Assembly (NCBI GenBank): GCA_947447375.1
Contig: CANFJB010000004.1
Location: forward strand, 1-64,000
Direction of reading: 5' to 3'
DNA length: 64,000 nt
Source: Bacteroidota bacterium
GTDB taxonomy: Bacteria > Bacteroidota > Bacteroidia > Flavobacteriales > Flavobacteriaceae
Each line of letters starts with the position of its first letter. Position 1 is the stretch's first letter. The notes under the pieces were generated by a model. The model had not been told where the DNA came from, did not search any database, and worked only from the letters and a program-made list of their open reading frames with translations. The position numbers and the translations under genes were made by a program. Shown here piece after piece: positions 56,748-62,002 of the stretch.

Positions 56748-57797
56748 ATGAAAAAATATAACCTTCTCTCAATCATTTTATTAGGCTCAATTTTTGTAGG
56801 TTGCAACGGTTCGAAATCGGCTACTGAAAAATATTTTAGTTTTGACGAAAGTAATTTTAAAAGCGAATACAATAATGACGACAGTGTTTCGCTGCGTTTA
56901 TTGAATGGTGAAAATAAAAAAATCGATAGTATTGTTTACTTTGTTAATGACAAGAATATTGGTTCGAAAAAGAATTTGGACAACCTAACTTTTAGCTTAA
57001 AAGATCAGAAATTGGGGTATCAAAATTTGAAGGCCTTAGTTTATTTTGAAGGTGAAAACCAAGAAATAACTTCTCGCATAGAATTGGTTTCGAATGTGAC
57101 TCCGAAATTATTGAACTATAAAATTGTGAATACGTTTCCTCATGATACTTCTTCTTTCACTGAAGGTTTAGAGTTTTTTAGAGATACTTTATTTGAAGGA
57201 ACGGGACTTCGTGGATTTTCGAAATTATTGAAAACAGATTATAAAACAGGGAAAATTTACAAATCGTTAAAATTAGACGATATATATTTTGGTGAAGGAA
57301 TTACCTTTATCAATAATAAATTATTTCAACTGACTTGGGAAGAAAAAACGGGATTTATTTACAATGTTGATACGTGGAAACTGGAAAAAACTTTTGCATA
57401 TGATAAACCAATTGAAGGTTGGGGTATGACGAATGATGGAAAAGTTATCTACGAATCAGATGGAACAGAGAAAATTTGGAAAATGGATCCAGCGACTCAA
57501 AAAATGATTGATTATGTAAATGTTTATTCTGGAAGCAGCAAGATAAAAAGCGTTAATGAGTTGGAATACATCAACGGAAAAATTTACTGTAATATTTGGC
57601 AAAAAGACGCTATTGCTGTTGTAAATCCTGAAAATGGTAAAGTAGAAGCGATTATTAATTTGGCTGGCTTACGCAAATTTATAAAATATGCTGAGGCGGA
57701 AGTTTTGAATGGAATTGCTTATAATCCGAAAACGAAAACCATATTTGTTACAGGAAAAAAATGGGAGAAACTATTTGAGATTACCGTCTCTGAATAA
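56748..57797 (+). CDS. Glutaminyl-peptide cyclotransferase lipoprotein
   Basis: A 349-residue lipoprotein (signal ending GSIFVGC, Cys19) of the five-bladed propeller glutamine cyclotransferase family. After an N-terminal beta-domain (about 30-120) the enzyme part begins YKIVNTFPHDTSSFTEGLEFFRDTLFEGTGLRG, the most typical family motif, and goes on with YFGEGITFINNKLFQLTWEEKTGFIYN, GWGMTNDGKVIYESDGTEKIW and INGKIYCNIWQKDAIAVVNP. It converts N-terminal glutamine to pyroglutamate on exported proteins. T9SS cargo often has N-terminal Gln after signal cleavage, so it may act on proteins such as those at 2953 and 15831 (inference). The promoter is shared with ffs. Confidence 0.92.
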   Translation: MKKYNLLSIILLGSIFVGCNGSKSATEKYFSFDESNFKSEYNNDDSVSLRLLNGENKKIDSIVYFVNDKNIGSKKNLDNLTFSLKDQKLGYQNLKALVYFEGENQEITSRIELVSNVTPKLLNYKIVNTFPHDTSSFTEGLEFFRDTLFEGTGLRGFSKLLKTDYKTGKIYKSLKLDDIYFGEGITFINNKLFQLTWEEKTGFIYNVDTWKLEKTFAYDKPIEGWGMTNDGKVIYESDGTEKIWKMDPATQKMIDYVNVYSGSSKIKSVNELEYINGKIYCNIWQKDAIAVVNPENGKVEAIINLAGLRKFIKYAEAEVLNGIAYNPKTKTIFVTGKKWEKLFEITVSE

Positions 57798-57809
57798 AAA
57801 TTAAAGCAT

Positions 57810-57838
57810 AAAAAAACCGCCTTGTTTTCACAAGGCGG
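57810..57838 (-). terminator. Terminator of proteorhodopsin gene 1
   Basis: CCGCCTTG, loop TTTTCA, CAAGGCGG, with A-run on the plus strand giving a U-run for the minus transcript. It is homologous to the terminator at 59586-59613. Confidence 0.9.
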
Positions 57839-57860
57839 CATATGTAATTGAGGGGCCTAA

Positions 57861-58586
57861 TTAGTCTTTTTGAGAATTTTGAGCCAAGTTGTAAATTACA
57901 AGACCAAATCCAATTTTGTTGATTGCATCTGCGATGTTGTAAGCTACGTCAACACTTCCTTTTCCAAGGATATTTGTGTACCATCCGTCAGTTCCTAACA
58001 TGTATCCTAATGGATAAATAGCCCAACCAACTAGTACGAACCAGCAAAGAATTTTGTGTGCAGCCAATACGTTTCCTCCAGCAGCAGCAGCTAATTTAGA
58101 AGCGCTTCCTAACCAGATTTCATAAGCTATTACAAAATAAGCCAATCCAGAGATTCCTCCCCATAATGCAGCTTGATCAGTGAATACCGTTTCTCCTAGG
58201 TAACCAGTAACTAACATTACAACTGACAAGAAAATCATTTTCCATAATAAATCAGTTTTTGCACCTGCAACTTTTAGTATTAAGTAAAACTCAACACACA
58301 TTAAAGGCACAGTAAGTACCCAATCCACATATCTGAAGAATGTTGGTGATTCTTGGAATTCAGACCAATACTCTTTCATGTAGAAATAGTGTACTGCTGC
58401 AATAAAGGTAATTAAACCTGAAACTAATACAGAAGTACGCCACTTTTTATCAAATTGACTTAATGATAAAAAGAAAAATGCAGATGCAGCCATCATAGCC
58501 ATACATCCAACAAAGAAAGTAAATCCTACATAATCAGTAGGTGCTAACTTTCCAATCAAACTCGGGTTAAACATAAAATTTGTCAT
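57861..58586 (-). CDS. Proteorhodopsin, copy 1 (green-type, proton pump)
   Basis: A 241-residue seven-helix light-driven proton pump. Key residues: proton acceptor D88 in RYVDW, T92, and proton donor E99 give the DTE motif of proteorhodopsin pumps; D220 and the retinal lysine K224 lie in IADAINKIGFGL; H66 matches the His that tunes the acceptor. M96 at the spectral-tuning site predicts green absorption, as in marine flavobacteria. It differs from copy 2 in 9 residues (4, 7, 112, 134, 136, 174, 205, 237, 240), none in the retinal pocket. It is divergent from blh across a 127-base region with TTGTTTAA boxes. Confidence 0.97.
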   Translation of the reverse strand: MTNFMFNPSLIGKLAPTDYVGFTFFVGCMAMMAASAFFFLSLSQFDKKWRTSVLVSGLITFIAAVHYFYMKEYWSEFQESPTFFRYVDWVLTVPLMCVEFYLILKVAGAKTDLLWKMIFLSVVMLVTGYLGETVFTDQAALWGGISGLAYFVIAYEIWLGSASKLAAAAGGNVLAAHKILCWFVLVGWAIYPLGYMLGTDGWYTNILGKGSVDVAYNIADAINKIGFGLVIYNLAQNSQKD

Positions 58587-58620
58587 AATAAAATTGGTTA
58601 AAATTGGTTAAATATTTATT

Positions 58621-58673
58621 TTGTTTAATCAAATGTATAAAAAGTTAAACAATAAAAAAAATATTTTGTTTAA
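58621..58673. promoter_or_regulatory. TTGTTTAA operator between proteorhodopsin 1 and blh
   Basis: Three exact half-sites: TTGTTTAA (58621-58628), its reverse complement TTAAACAA (58645-58652) and TTGTTTAA (58666-58673). The first two form a perfect 8-base inverted repeat with a 16-base gap that holds TACATTTG (minus strand, 58637-58630), the -7 box of the rhodopsin gene. The third lies before the probable blh promoter (TATTTTTA, about 58685). A dimeric regulator could control both genes. Confidence 0.6.
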
Positions 58674-58713
58674 TTTTTTTTTATTATTTTTAGACAATAA
58701 TTAAAAAACGATT

Positions 58714-59586
58714 ATGAAATATTTCAATTTCGCAATAGTAGCAAGCTTTTTTTGTTTGTGGCTTGATTCTTTACTATCAAATGATGCTCAAATAATTGTT
58801 GGTTTTATTTTGATTTTAACGTTTGGAATTCTTCATGGCGCGAACGATTTACTTCTAATTAAGAAAATAGATATTAATAAGGAGCAAATATCATTTCAAA
58901 AAACACTACTCTATTATATAATAGTCGTTGGTTTAGGATCGCTATTATTTTGGATAATCCCTTGGTTTGCTCTTTTACTCTTTATTATTGTAAGTGGTTA
59001 TCATTTTGGAGAACAACAATGGGAAAATTTAGAAAAAAGTTCGTTGTTTAAGCTATTCGAGTTTACCTATGGTTTATTTATTCTAATGTTACTATTTAAT
59101 TTTAACATTAAAGAGGTTCAAGAAGTGATACATAATATTACGTCAATAGTTGTCCCTGAGAATTATTTTACTAATGGATTAATAATTAATAGTGTAGCTT
59201 TGGTTGCTTTAGGAATTTACTTTTCAAATAAGTTGGTAGAATTTAAAAACAGATGGATGCTTGAAACTTTTTATCTATTAGTATTCACTGTCATATTCCG
59301 AGTTTCTAGTTTGATATGGGGATTTGCCATTTATTTTATCATTTGGCATAGCATTCCTTCAATAATCAATCAAATAAGTTATTTAAATGGAGAAGTGAGT
59401 TGGAATAATTTTAGAAAATACATTTGTTCCGCATTTCTGTATTGGGTAATTTCATTAATTGGAATTGCTACCTTATATTTATTATTTAAAGATATTGAAA
59501 TTTTTAACGCCTTATTTTTCTCTTTCCTGGCTGCAATTACTTTTCCACATGTTTTAGTTATATTTATTCTATTTAAAAAGAAATAA
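58714..59586 (+). CDS. blh: Beta-carotene 15,15-dioxygenase, Brp/Blh family
   Basis: A 290-residue membrane enzyme cleaving beta-carotene into two retinals, the chromophore of the adjacent rhodopsins. Family motifs with iron-ligand histidines: LTFGILHGANDLLLI, IIVSGYHFGEQQWENL, YFIIWHSIPSIINQI and ITFPHVLVIFILF. About eight hydrophobic spans. The lycopene cyclase and other crt genes that supply beta-carotene are not in the window. It is divergent from rhodopsin 1 and convergent with rhodopsin 2, which lies 51 bases beyond the stop. Confidence 0.93.
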   Translation: MKYFNFAIVASFFCLWLDSLLSNDAQIIVGFILILTFGILHGANDLLLIKKIDINKEQISFQKTLLYYIIVVGLGSLLFWIIPWFALLLFIIVSGYHFGEQQWENLEKSSLFKLFEFTYGLFILMLLFNFNIKEVQEVIHNITSIVVPENYFTNGLIINSVALVALGIYFSNKLVEFKNRWMLETFYLLVFTVIFRVSSLIWGFAIYFIIWHSIPSIINQISYLNGEVSWNNFRKYICSAFLYWVISLIGIATLYLLFKDIEIFNALFFSFLAAITFPHVLVIFILFKKK

Positions 59587-59613
59587 AAAAACCGCCTTGT
59601 TTTCGCAAGACGG
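59586..59613. terminator. Terminator between blh and proteorhodopsin gene 2
   Basis: CCGCCTTG, loop TTTTCG, CAAGACGG with one mismatched pair. The A-run makes it a good terminator for the minus-strand rhodopsin; the plus side has only a short T stretch. It shares more than 20 bases with the terminator at 57810-57838. Confidence 0.85.
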
Positions 59614-59637
59614 TTTAATTTATATTTTAAAAGCTAA

Positions 59638-60363
59638 TTAATCGTTTTGAGATTTTTGAGCTAAGTTGTAAATTACAAGACCAAATCCAATTTTGTTGAT
59701 TGCATCTGCGATGTTGTAAGCTACGTCTACACTTCCTTTTCCAAGGATATCAGTGTACCATCCGTCAGTTCCTAACATGTATCCTAATGGATAGATAGCC
59801 CAACCAACTAGTACAAACCAGCATAAGATTTTGTGTGCAGCTTGAACATTTCCTCCAGCAGCAGCAGCTAATTTAGAAGCGCTTCCTAACCAGATTTCAT
59901 AAGCTATTACAAAATAAGCCAATCCAGAGATTCCTCCCCATAATGCAGCTTGATCAGAGAATAAAGTTTCTCCTAGGTAACCTGTTACTAACATTACTAC
60001 TGATAAGAAAATCATTTTCCAAAGCAAATTAGTTTTTGCTCCTGCAACTTTTAGTATTAAGTAAAACTCAACACACATTAATGGCACAGTTAATACCCAA
60101 TCCACATATCTGAAGAATGTTGGTGATTCTTGGAATTCAGACCAATACTCTTTCATGTAGAAATAGTGTACTGCTGCAATAAAGGTAATTAAACCCGAAA
60201 CTAATACAGAAGTACGCCACTTTTTATCAAATTGACTTAATGATAAAAAGAAAAATGCAGATGCAGCCATCATGGCCATACATCCAACAAAAAAGGTAAA
60301 TCCTACATAATCAGTAGGCGCTAACTTTCCAATCAAACTTGGAATAAACATTAAATTTGTCAT
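59638..60363 (-). CDS. Proteorhodopsin, copy 2 (green-type, proton pump)
   Basis: A 241-residue paralogue, 232 of 241 residues identical to copy 1, with the same D88/T92/E99, M96 and K224. Changes are at the termini, in loops and at helix edges. DNA identity is also high and goes on through the terminator downstream and about 20 bases upstream of the ATG (AATTGGTTAA), where it stops. So this is a recent duplication or gene conversion with a separate regulatory region. Copy 2 has no TTGTTTAA inverted repeat and a much longer possible leader. Confidence 0.97.
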   Translation of the reverse strand: MTNLMFIPSLIGKLAPTDYVGFTFFVGCMAMMAASAFFFLSLSQFDKKWRTSVLVSGLITFIAAVHYFYMKEYWSEFQESPTFFRYVDWVLTVPLMCVEFYLILKVAGAKTNLLWKMIFLSVVMLVTGYLGETLFSDQAALWGGISGLAYFVIAYEIWLGSASKLAAAAGGNVQAAHKILCWFVLVGWAIYPLGYMLGTDGWYTDILGKGSVDVAYNIADAINKIGFGLVIYNLAQKSQND

Positions 60364-60545
60364 AATTAAAATTGGTTAATTGGTTTTCTTACTCGTAAGG
60401 CTTTTCGGTTCCGCCCCGTTGTTTAAAGTAGTTTCTGGACTCCACTAACATTACAAAATTAATAAAATAATTGTTAATATTATATCAAACTTAAATAATT
60501 TTAATTAAATTGATAATTGTGAATGTAAAAAGTTATCAAATATAT
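60364..60545 (-). promoter_or_regulatory. Long, partly GC-rich leader of proteorhodopsin 2
   Basis: Minus-strand boxes TATATTTG (60544-60537) and TAAGTTTG (60493-60486) are exact TAnnTTTG matches, far from the ATG at 60363, so the leader would be about 120-170 bases. Bases 60386-60440 are notably GC-rich for this genome: GGCGGAACCG and a perfect CTTAC-GA-GTAAG hairpin (60389-60400) follow each other. A single TTAAACAA half-site is at 60426-60419. No known riboswitch was recognised. Confidence 0.45.
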
Positions 60546-60586
60546 ATTTATGAAATTGTTAATAACTACATTTTATAACAAAAAAA

Positions 60587-60612
60587 ACGAACTTTTTTAA
60601 GTTCGTTTTTGA
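60587..60612 (-). terminator. Terminator of purC
   Basis: AACGAACTT, loop TTTT, AAGTTCGTT with an A-run before it, giving the U-run on the minus transcript. Confidence 0.88.
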
Positions 60613-60651
60613 GTATATCGCAATAAAAATCCTATTACTATAAAGAGAAGT

Positions 60652-61602
60652 TTACTTTTTGGACAAATAATCTAATACGTTTTTTTCAATTCTACTATTG
60701 ATGTCAGAAATATCAGCTTTAATGAATTTTTCACCGATAATATTTTCAAATAATTCAATATAACGATCAGAAACCGTTTGAATGTATTCATCAGTCATAT
60801 TTGGAATCTTTTGTCCATCTTTACCTTGAAATCCATTTTCTATCAACCAACGTCTTACAAACTCTTTAGAAAGTTGTTTTTGCTCTTCGCCATTGTCTTG
60901 GCGTTCTTGGTAACCATCTGCATAAAAATAACGAGAAGAATCGGGAGTATGAATTTCATCTATCAATACAATTTTCCCGTCTTTGGTTTTCCCAAATTCA
61001 TATTTGGTATCTACCAATATCAATCCACGGCTAGCAGCAATTTCAGTTCCTCGTTGAAATAAAGCACGAGTATATTTTTCTAATACCAAATAATCTTCTT
61101 CAGATACAATTCCCTTTGCTAAAATGTCCTCACGAGAAATATCTTCATCGTGTGCTCCATTATCTGCTTTGGTTGATGGAGTAATTATTGGTGTTGAAAA
61201 TTTATCATTTTCTTTTAACCCTTCAGGCATTGCAACCCCGCACAACGTTCTTTTCCCAGCAGCATACTCACGAGCAGCATGACCAGAAACATAACCACGA
61301 ATTACCATTTCCACTTTAAAAGGCTCACATAAATGTCCGATTGCCACATTTGGATCTGGAGTTGCAATTAACCAATTCGGAACAATATCCTGAGTTAATT
61401 CCATGAATTTAGTCGCAATTTGATTTAAAATCTGACCTTTATAAGGTATTCCTTTTGGCATTACCACATCAAAAGCTGAAAGTCTATCGGTGGCAACCAT
61501 AACCAATAAATCGTTATTGATATTGTATACTTCGCGAACTTTTCCGTGGTAAACTGACTTTTGGTAAGGAAAATTAAAATTAGTGGTAGTAATTGTATTC
61601 AT
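60652..61602 (-). CDS. purC: Phosphoribosylaminoimidazole-succinocarboxamide synthase
   Basis: A 316-residue enzyme ligating aspartate to CAIR in purine synthesis. Motifs: [13 protein letters not shown] (ATP loop), [89 protein letters not shown]. The length fits the long (yeast-like) form used in Bacteroidetes. It starts at [15 protein letters not shown], with a TACTTTTG box at 61632-61639. No other pur genes are adjacent. Confidence 0.97.
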
Positions 61603-61631
61603 TTAATTGTGTTGTTTGTTGTTGTGTACTG

Positions 61632-61639
61632 CAAAAGTA
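61632..61639 (-). promoter_or_regulatory. -7 box TACTTTTG for purC
   Basis: Exact TAnnTTTG on the minus strand, 29 bases before the ATG at 61602. The rest of 61640-61970 has no gene; it holds a copy (about 61716-61746) of the hairpin repeat TCATGCTGAACTTGTTTCA first seen at 38024. Confidence 0.6.
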
Positions 61640-61976
61640 GATTGTTTTATAGAAGAAAGCAAAATAGGAAGTGATTTAATTGAAAAATCTTTGTTTTGCT
61701 TAATCTACTATCCTGACTTGTCATGCTGAACTTGTTTCAACATCTAAATGAAATTGAAATAAAATCAATTAAAATCTGTTTATCTAAGTCAAAAAAACTC
61801 CTAAATCAAAACCACCAATTACAAGAATTTTCTCAAATTTCTTTAGAAACAAAATGCAATTCTATTAACTTATAAAGTTTAACTACTGATTGAGGATTTT
61901 AAAATCTAATGCTTCATTCGACTTTAAGACTTTTGACTTTCGACATATTTTTTTAAGTACTATTTATAAAAATAAC

Positions 61977-61984
61977 TATTTTTG
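61977..61984 (+). promoter_or_regulatory. -7 box TATTTTTG for aguB-aguA
   Basis: Exact TAnnTTTG. The TTG at 61982 that opens the reading frame is inside this box, so the start is the ATG at 62003, 18 bases after it. Confidence 0.65.
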
Positions 61985-62002
61985 CAGTCTAAAATTTTAG
62001 CT

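Follow-up and report, generated by a model that had tools for sequence, protein, structure and literature searches.

The 64,000-nucleotide (nt) stretch analysed here (the window) is the start of contig CANFJB010000004.1 in the Bacteroidota assembly GCA_947447375.1, a Flavobacteriaceae genome of 2.39 Mb and 95.7% completeness (G000; other G and L labels denote genomes and loci of relatives, and C a contig). It contains two minus-strand proteorhodopsin (PR) genes, PR1 and PR2, on either side of the retinal synthesis gene blh, and, upstream of PR2, a further gene that is presumably purC to judge by its sequence (Table 1). The PR1 and PR2 proteins differ at 9 of 241 residues (F4L, N7I, D112N, V134L, T136S, L174Q, N205D, N237K and K240N), and the genes at 41 of 726 nt, 29 of which fall within synonymous and 12 within changed codons. 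Both products have the Bac_rhodopsin domain, the retinal lysine and the D/T/E triad, which we take to be the proton-pump signature. D88, T92, E99 and K224 are unchanged between the copies, as is M96, presumably the colour-tuning position of green proteorhodopsin, and the closest solved structure to PR1 was 9jov. Both genes are predicted to encode the same light-driven proton pump. The hairpin regions at 57808-57838 and 59583-59613 are 94% alike, while upstream likeness is limited to about 20-25 nt before the ATG. These results confirm a preliminary description of this DNA, which had reported two minus-strand copies around blh with the same pump and tuning residues, shared terminators and a similarity stopping about 20 bases 5′ of the ATG. 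The pump itself and the PR-blh pair are ordinary; what is unusual is that a conserved orphan RNA leader precedes a second copy of the pump, the original being kept under a pigment-linked site.

Table 1. Features of the two-proteorhodopsin locus in window coordinates
Feature	Position	Strand	Basis or remark
Hairpin and T-run 3′ of PR1, between convergent PR1 and a glutamine-cyclotransferase-like gene	57808..57838		putative terminator
PR1, proteorhodopsin copy 1, 241 residues	57861..58586	-	Pfam Bac_rhodopsin 2e-40; D88/T92/E99/K224
Operator-like inverted repeat TTGTTTAA-N16-TTAAACAA, overlapping the PR1 promoter	58621..58652		exact
Putative -7 box of PR1, TACATTTG, of the flavobacterial type	58630..58637	-	read from sequence
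Operator-like inverted repeat TTGTTTAA-N16-TTAGACAA, facing blh	58666..58697		one mismatch
blh, beta-carotene 15,15'-dioxygenase (retinal synthesis)	58714..59586	+	PF15461 4.4e-39; TIGR03753 181 bits, cut-off 95
Hairpin and T-run between convergent PR2 and blh	59583..59613		PR1 type, differs from the hairpin 3′ of gene X
PR2, proteorhodopsin copy 2, 241 residues	59638..60363	-	Pfam Bac_rhodopsin 9e-41; slot of gene X by synteny
Short start flank between RNA and ATG	60364..60381	-	PR type, not X type
DUF805 RNA (Rfam RF03081, clan CL00115)	60382..60450	-	72.8 bits, E 1.3e-12
Upstream box GTTATTAA-N19-TTGATAAC, holding the putative -7 box TATATTTG	60532..60566	-	putative promoter
Hairpin 3′ of purC	60588..60607	-	likely terminator; present in seven aligned PR2-type loci
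purC-like gene, upstream flank of the PR2/X slot	60652..61602	-	named from its sequence; synteny

An Rfam scan of positions 57000-62000 placed a DUF805 RNA in the long leader that the preliminary description had seen before copy 2. The match covers the full length of RF03081 (model positions 1-68 of 68) and, at 72.8 bits, exceeds the gathering score of 51.1; no second one was found in the 2.39-Mb genome. Of 11 RNA-family matches at the locus, the remaining 10 fell under their gathering scores and were rejected. The RNA ends 18 nt before the ATG of PR2. Further upstream, TATATTTG fits the flavobacterial -7 box, and the same or a near box is present both in loci with PR2 behind the RNA (PR2-type) and in loci of relatives in which another gene, X, follows it (X-type, see below). 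As a hairpin stands after purC, PR2 is probably transcribed separately. In six PR2-type genomes, the RNA differs from that of the window at only 1-8 of 67-69 nt, compared with 29-49 of 201-202 nt for the upstream DNA. Since the RNA differs far less than the upstream DNA, it was probably kept after the gene swap proposed below. The predicted structure, a 5-bp stem and two interlocked 3-bp helices, was examined in an alignment of 31 RNA sequences (30 distinct), in which 98.2% of the cells were paired, against 14-50% in slid controls. Neither the covariation score (0.267, against 0.140 in shuffles) nor the count of cells changed on both sides was reached by any of 500 shuffles. Two results weigh against this structure: 56 of 500 shuffles had at least as many pairs with changes on both sides as the alignment did (4 of 11), and the minimum free energy fold of the PR2 leader, computed with pseudoknots not folded, lacked it (z +1.8). 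One of the two interlocked helices had no both-side change in the 31-sequence alignment.

Across the genus, RF03081 matches were found in 182 of 299 genomes, 152 of them above the cut-off. The start codon lies 11-20 nt 3′ of the RNA in 110 of 113 located hits (111 distinct) and 22-30 nt in the other three, and the downstream proteins fall into 50 unrelated clusters. Among the matches listed (first 25 of 33 families), a DUF805 protein was downstream for 1 of 51 representatives, and mechanosensitive-channel, NmrA-like, scramblase and leucine-rich-repeat families also appeared. Because the compact fold stands so near the start codon that a terminator would not fit between them, the DUF805 RNA most likely acts at translation start. 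At fixed distances 5′ of the RNAs, neither a conserved base nor a promoter was found. A literature search, which reached few subscription papers, found nothing on the trigger of this RNA, a motif reportedly originating with Weinberg in 2017. The RNA in the window resembles the motif in its full-length match, its helices and its position just before a start codon, and differs in that it precedes a light-driven ion pump. At locus L090 (G081:C3), three tandem DUF805 RNAs are spaced about 0.9 kb apart, with a short protein gene after each.

The gene order purC-RNA-PR2-blh-PR1 was found in G000 and on contig C29 of G014 (G014:C29). At G014:C134 and L114 the order is purC-RNA-X-blh-PR1, in which X is a 271-residue membrane-protein-like gene unrelated to PR, and RNA-X-blh-PR1 was seen at L117, G043, G159, L154 and G028, with no purC upstream within the stretch examined. 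The DNA 5′ of the RNA is alike between X-type and PR2-type loci, and at the PR2 locus both the terminator and the bases just 5′ of the ATG are of the PR type. By this comparison, a PR copy stands in the place of X, behind the upstream DNA and RNA of X. As X fills the slot in a wider set of relatives, the direction of change was presumably from X to PR. A Pfam search with X at E <= 1 gave one match, below the cut-off, and NCBIfam gave none; an AlphaFold2 model built from five sequences reached a mean predicted local distance difference test score (pLDDT) of 36. X is present in 8 of the 299 genomes; G014 is the only one to have it among the six PR2-type genomes covered (all but G353). G014 has one PR2-type contig and one X-type contig, with purC on each, and is probably a mixed bin. 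Identity between C134 and L154 is 85% for X and 56% for blh, and that between C134 and L117 is 64% and 73%, respectively. X therefore seems to move between lineages, and its occurrences in the neighbours of G014 may be re-entries. In G002 (L160, G002:C32), RNA and X lie downstream of PR1, so that X accompanies PR in more than one arrangement. We tentatively suggest, at rather low confidence, that the DUF805 RNA is a portable control slot: a well-kept leader, present several times per genome in many genomes, that would serve as a homology seam for swapping downstream genes, one such slot having been entered by PR.

The promoter region of PR1 is of a different kind. The inverted repeat that the preliminary description had noted there and before blh is exact at PR1 and has one mismatch at blh, and shuffles of the window gave an expectation of 0.02 sites against the two seen. 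With at most one mismatch and the exact 16-nt spacing, the 2.39-Mb genome has four such places, and the reversed-pattern control none: PR1 (exact), blh, the TIGR03643-SDR-folE operon (exact; G000:C11:76378-76409, L201/L207, beyond the window) and the gap between a uvrA-like and a secreted-protein-like gene. The last of these, a one-mismatch site at G000:C9:70433-70464 (L371), is without a clear pigment link; a tie to light repair is possible. Looser patterns were no commoner in the genome than their reversed controls, which weighs against the regulon proposed below; separation from the control was seen only for the exact 16-nt spacing with at most one mismatch. In a genus-wide search allowing one mismatch per half and a spacer of 13-19 nt, the pair was found in 68 of 76 PR-blh intergenic regions (shuffles: mean 5.2, largest 15) and upstream of at least 6 of 30 TIGR03643 genes (0.14 in shuffles, with 2 the largest), the latter figure being a floor, as several start codons are placed too far downstream. 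None of 14 PR2 or X leaders examined (18 known) had the pair. Positions 60419-60426 of the window, in the linker of the RNA, form an isolated TTGTTTAA half-site, whose letters recur in G137, G193 and G086, not in G014, G035 or G353. The putative -7 box of PR1 follows the flavobacterial consensus TAnnTTTG (PMC9723704). PR1 and blh in the window share the divergent promoter found genus-wide for the flavobacterial PR-blh pair, whereas the second, near-identical PR beyond blh, with another leader, sets the window apart.

A candidate regulator for these sites is encoded about 55 kb past the window end, where a 299-residue MerR gene (G000:C4:118857) heads a group of crt genes comprising a phytoene-desaturase-like gene, a phytoene-synthase gene and one more, presumably crtZ. 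A variant of the PR1-type site overlaps the start of the MerR gene itself. Among the relatives of this gene (the best 30, from 106 of 121 genomes with a match), TTGTTTAA with at most one mismatch precedes all 30 and is exact in 23, against mono-shuffle means of 7.8 and 0.45. The protein has the domains MerR_1 (PF13411, 3.2e-13) and B12-binding_2 (PF02607, 6.5e-11). The motifs W-x(9-11)-EH and ExHxxG, of the kind we take to be cobalamin motifs (W-x9-EH and E/DxHxxG), are present in all 30 relatives, and the stricter DxHxxG in none of them. No PF02310 match was listed at E <= 1. The NCBIfam score for CarH (NF052513, 65.6 bits, cut-off 400) weighs against assignment to that family, and because it is so far under the cut-off, the protein is called CarH-like only. 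In common with CarH/LitR-type repressors it has a MerR head with B12-binding_2, the motifs, a position at the head of crt genes and a site over its own start; it differs in its low CarH score, in the missing PF02310 match and in that its sites would reach PR and blh. The co-occurrence of sites suggests that this CarH-like protein may bind TTGTTTAA sites and respond to light, with PR1, blh, crt and the folE operon forming a probable light/B12-type pigment regulon. Light-induced carotenoid synthesis has been reported in a Chryseobacterium of the same family (PMC7064467). In several relatives, among them G002, G007, G010, G029, G045 and G047, the distance between the TIGR03643 gene and the CarH-like gene is 8-9 kb.

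As PR1 has the site pair and the PR2/X leaders examined do not, the evidence suggests that the PR pump sits in two control circuits, one a probable pigment regulon and the other an orphan RNA leader. The earlier proposal of one pump under two circuits is thus supported at the sequence level, and its linking of one circuit to retinal supply is well supported by recurrence of the PR1 site at blh, at the folE operon and, as a variant, at the crt regulator gene. The other circuit had been proposed as perhaps constitutive or otherwise controlled; for copy 2, this idea takes concrete form in the RF03081 RNA, which precedes another gene in relatives.

The explanation that we regard as fairly probable is that a PR duplicate replaced X, that the pump thereby came under two control routes, and that the gene bodies were later homogenised by gene conversion. 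In this scheme, the duplicate took the place of the unrelated membrane-protein gene X beside blh, keeping its own short start flank and terminator and inheriting the upstream DNA of X together with the DUF805 RNA leader, and PR1 would have remained in the ancestral divergent PR-blh promoter. The 16-nt-spaced TTGTTTAA/TTAAACAA sites would define a CarH-like MerR regulon that includes crt and the folE operon. Along the first route, PR1 would be controlled at transcription together with the synthesis of pigment and retinal, light or B12 state probably lifting the repression; along the second, the folded leader would gate PR2 output, most likely when translation starts. Conversion would have homogenised the PR gene bodies, the control regions staying apart.

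The number of replacement events was weighed by synonymous divergence (dS) in sister genomes, a check proposed in the preliminary description. The two copies differ by a dS of 0.21 within G000 and 0.25 within G014 (124 codons), against 0.60-0.66 between these genomes; the L120 PR was left out of the dS comparison owing to a 15-residue insert. This PR, at L120:994-1761, has its insert after YWS and belongs to a close relative, whose blh is 88% alike to that of the window. Between G000 and G014, flank dS was 1.36 for purC and 1.85 for blh, near saturation. In the first 372 nt of PR, 23 sites are alike within genomes and none between orthologues, and a PR tree with a clade of the four longest PR2 sequences was rejected (log-likelihood difference 99.8). 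The 3′ end AACGAT-stop-TTAGC is common to PR2 of G000 and G014. The PR2 N-terminus is MTNLMFIPS in all five window-clade genomes translated, and that of PR1 in G000 is MTNFMFNPS. An exact match of 147 nt between two G137 contigs was dropped, as these contigs overlap by exactly 149 nt, possibly made by the assembler.

Several observations weigh against a single replacement followed by conversion. The pairing of the two PR copies of G014 had moderate support (89/83), and a near copy of the PR2 3′ signature was found at a PR end of G035 beside the cyclotransferase gene. Conversion within the clade of the window is not recent, as PR2 of G000 and that of G137 differ by a dS of 0.19, less than the two copies of G000 itself, and short 5′ pieces gave mixed signals, with G193 PR2 at 0.15 from PR1 and 0.29 from PR2 of G000. 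In the PR tree, the X-type loci G014:C134, L114 and G159 stand beside the PR2-type locus of G014, and the purC proteins of G014:C29 and L114 are 99.4% alike. The strongest alternative, which we hold to be possible but distinctly less probable, is that X was replaced by PR twice, independently in the lineages of the window and of G014, with little or no later conversion. It would account for the grouping of copies within genomes in the PR tree and for the X-type relatives next to G014, for within-genome dS values as similar as 0.21 and 0.25, and equally well for the purC likeness; a second swap of this kind could have been guided by the short sequences AACC and CGGTTTTTTTTAT, which match at the two junctions. 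The presence of purC 5′ of X in few loci and the mixed short-segment signals also raised its weight. It explains the tree, but not the 3′ end shared by PR2 of both lineages, as this signature was missing from 78 of 79 other PR ends scanned, the one exception being PR2 of G014 itself. The junctions, moreover, are alike, and X, being apparently mobile, could have returned to the slot. One replacement followed by conversion is favoured because it would explain both the within-genome likeness of the gene bodies and the shared PR2 3′ end. The earlier suggestion that near-identity may be kept by gene conversion is thus favoured by dS, sites, tree and 3′ signature.

A simple dosage duplication, with an incidental leader, copies expressed alike and selection on copy number, would fit the unchanged pump and tuning residues and the maintained near-identity of the copies. 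We consider it unlikely, as conservation of the RNA far exceeds that of the DNA 5′ of it and the PR1 site pair is missing from the PR2/X leaders examined.

PR behind the RNA was found in seven assemblies, those of the window, G014, G137, G193, G035, G086 and G353. A pattern search for the RNA directly 5′ of PR, which covered the best 80 of 524 PR loci, returned L113 (G014:C29) and L122 (G137). Both blh and a second PR were seen in G000 and G014:C29 only, the second PR of the latter being cut at the contig end. PR2 stops at the contig end in G137, G193, G035 and G086, and at the end of the examined stretch in G353. Weighing against a general two-copy arrangement, blh was not found in the bins of five of the six other PR2-type assemblies, so that two copies in G137, G193, G035, G086 and G353 are presumed rather than seen; the missing blh would fit an assembly broken at repeats. 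That one copy is an assembly or binning artefact, a refuting case named in the preliminary description, is highly improbable because six other assemblies also have PR following purC and the RNA, and because the 184 kb contig of the window spans the locus and the copies differ at 41 nt, even though the sister bins break off within PR and have no blh.

More than one rhodopsin gene per genome is known from Dokdonia PRO95, with a PR and an XR-like gene (PMC3587595), and from SAR11 IIIa, with two rhodopsins in two orthologous clusters (PMC10030771). The copies there belong to different types or clusters, whereas those of the window appear to be one pump split by control region. The regulation of flavobacterial PR has been said to call for further work (PMC3587595). 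With one replacement and two control routes as the favoured reading, this locus would be a natural paired experiment in which one cell carries the same pump behind two leaders. For PR, blh and crt, the locus points to a candidate regulator and a candidate site. It would also provide an orphan RNA family with a target whose product can be assayed, and so a way to seek its trigger. If the DUF805 RNA is indeed a portable slot, one organism would possess pigment-coupled and RNA-gated forms of the same pump.

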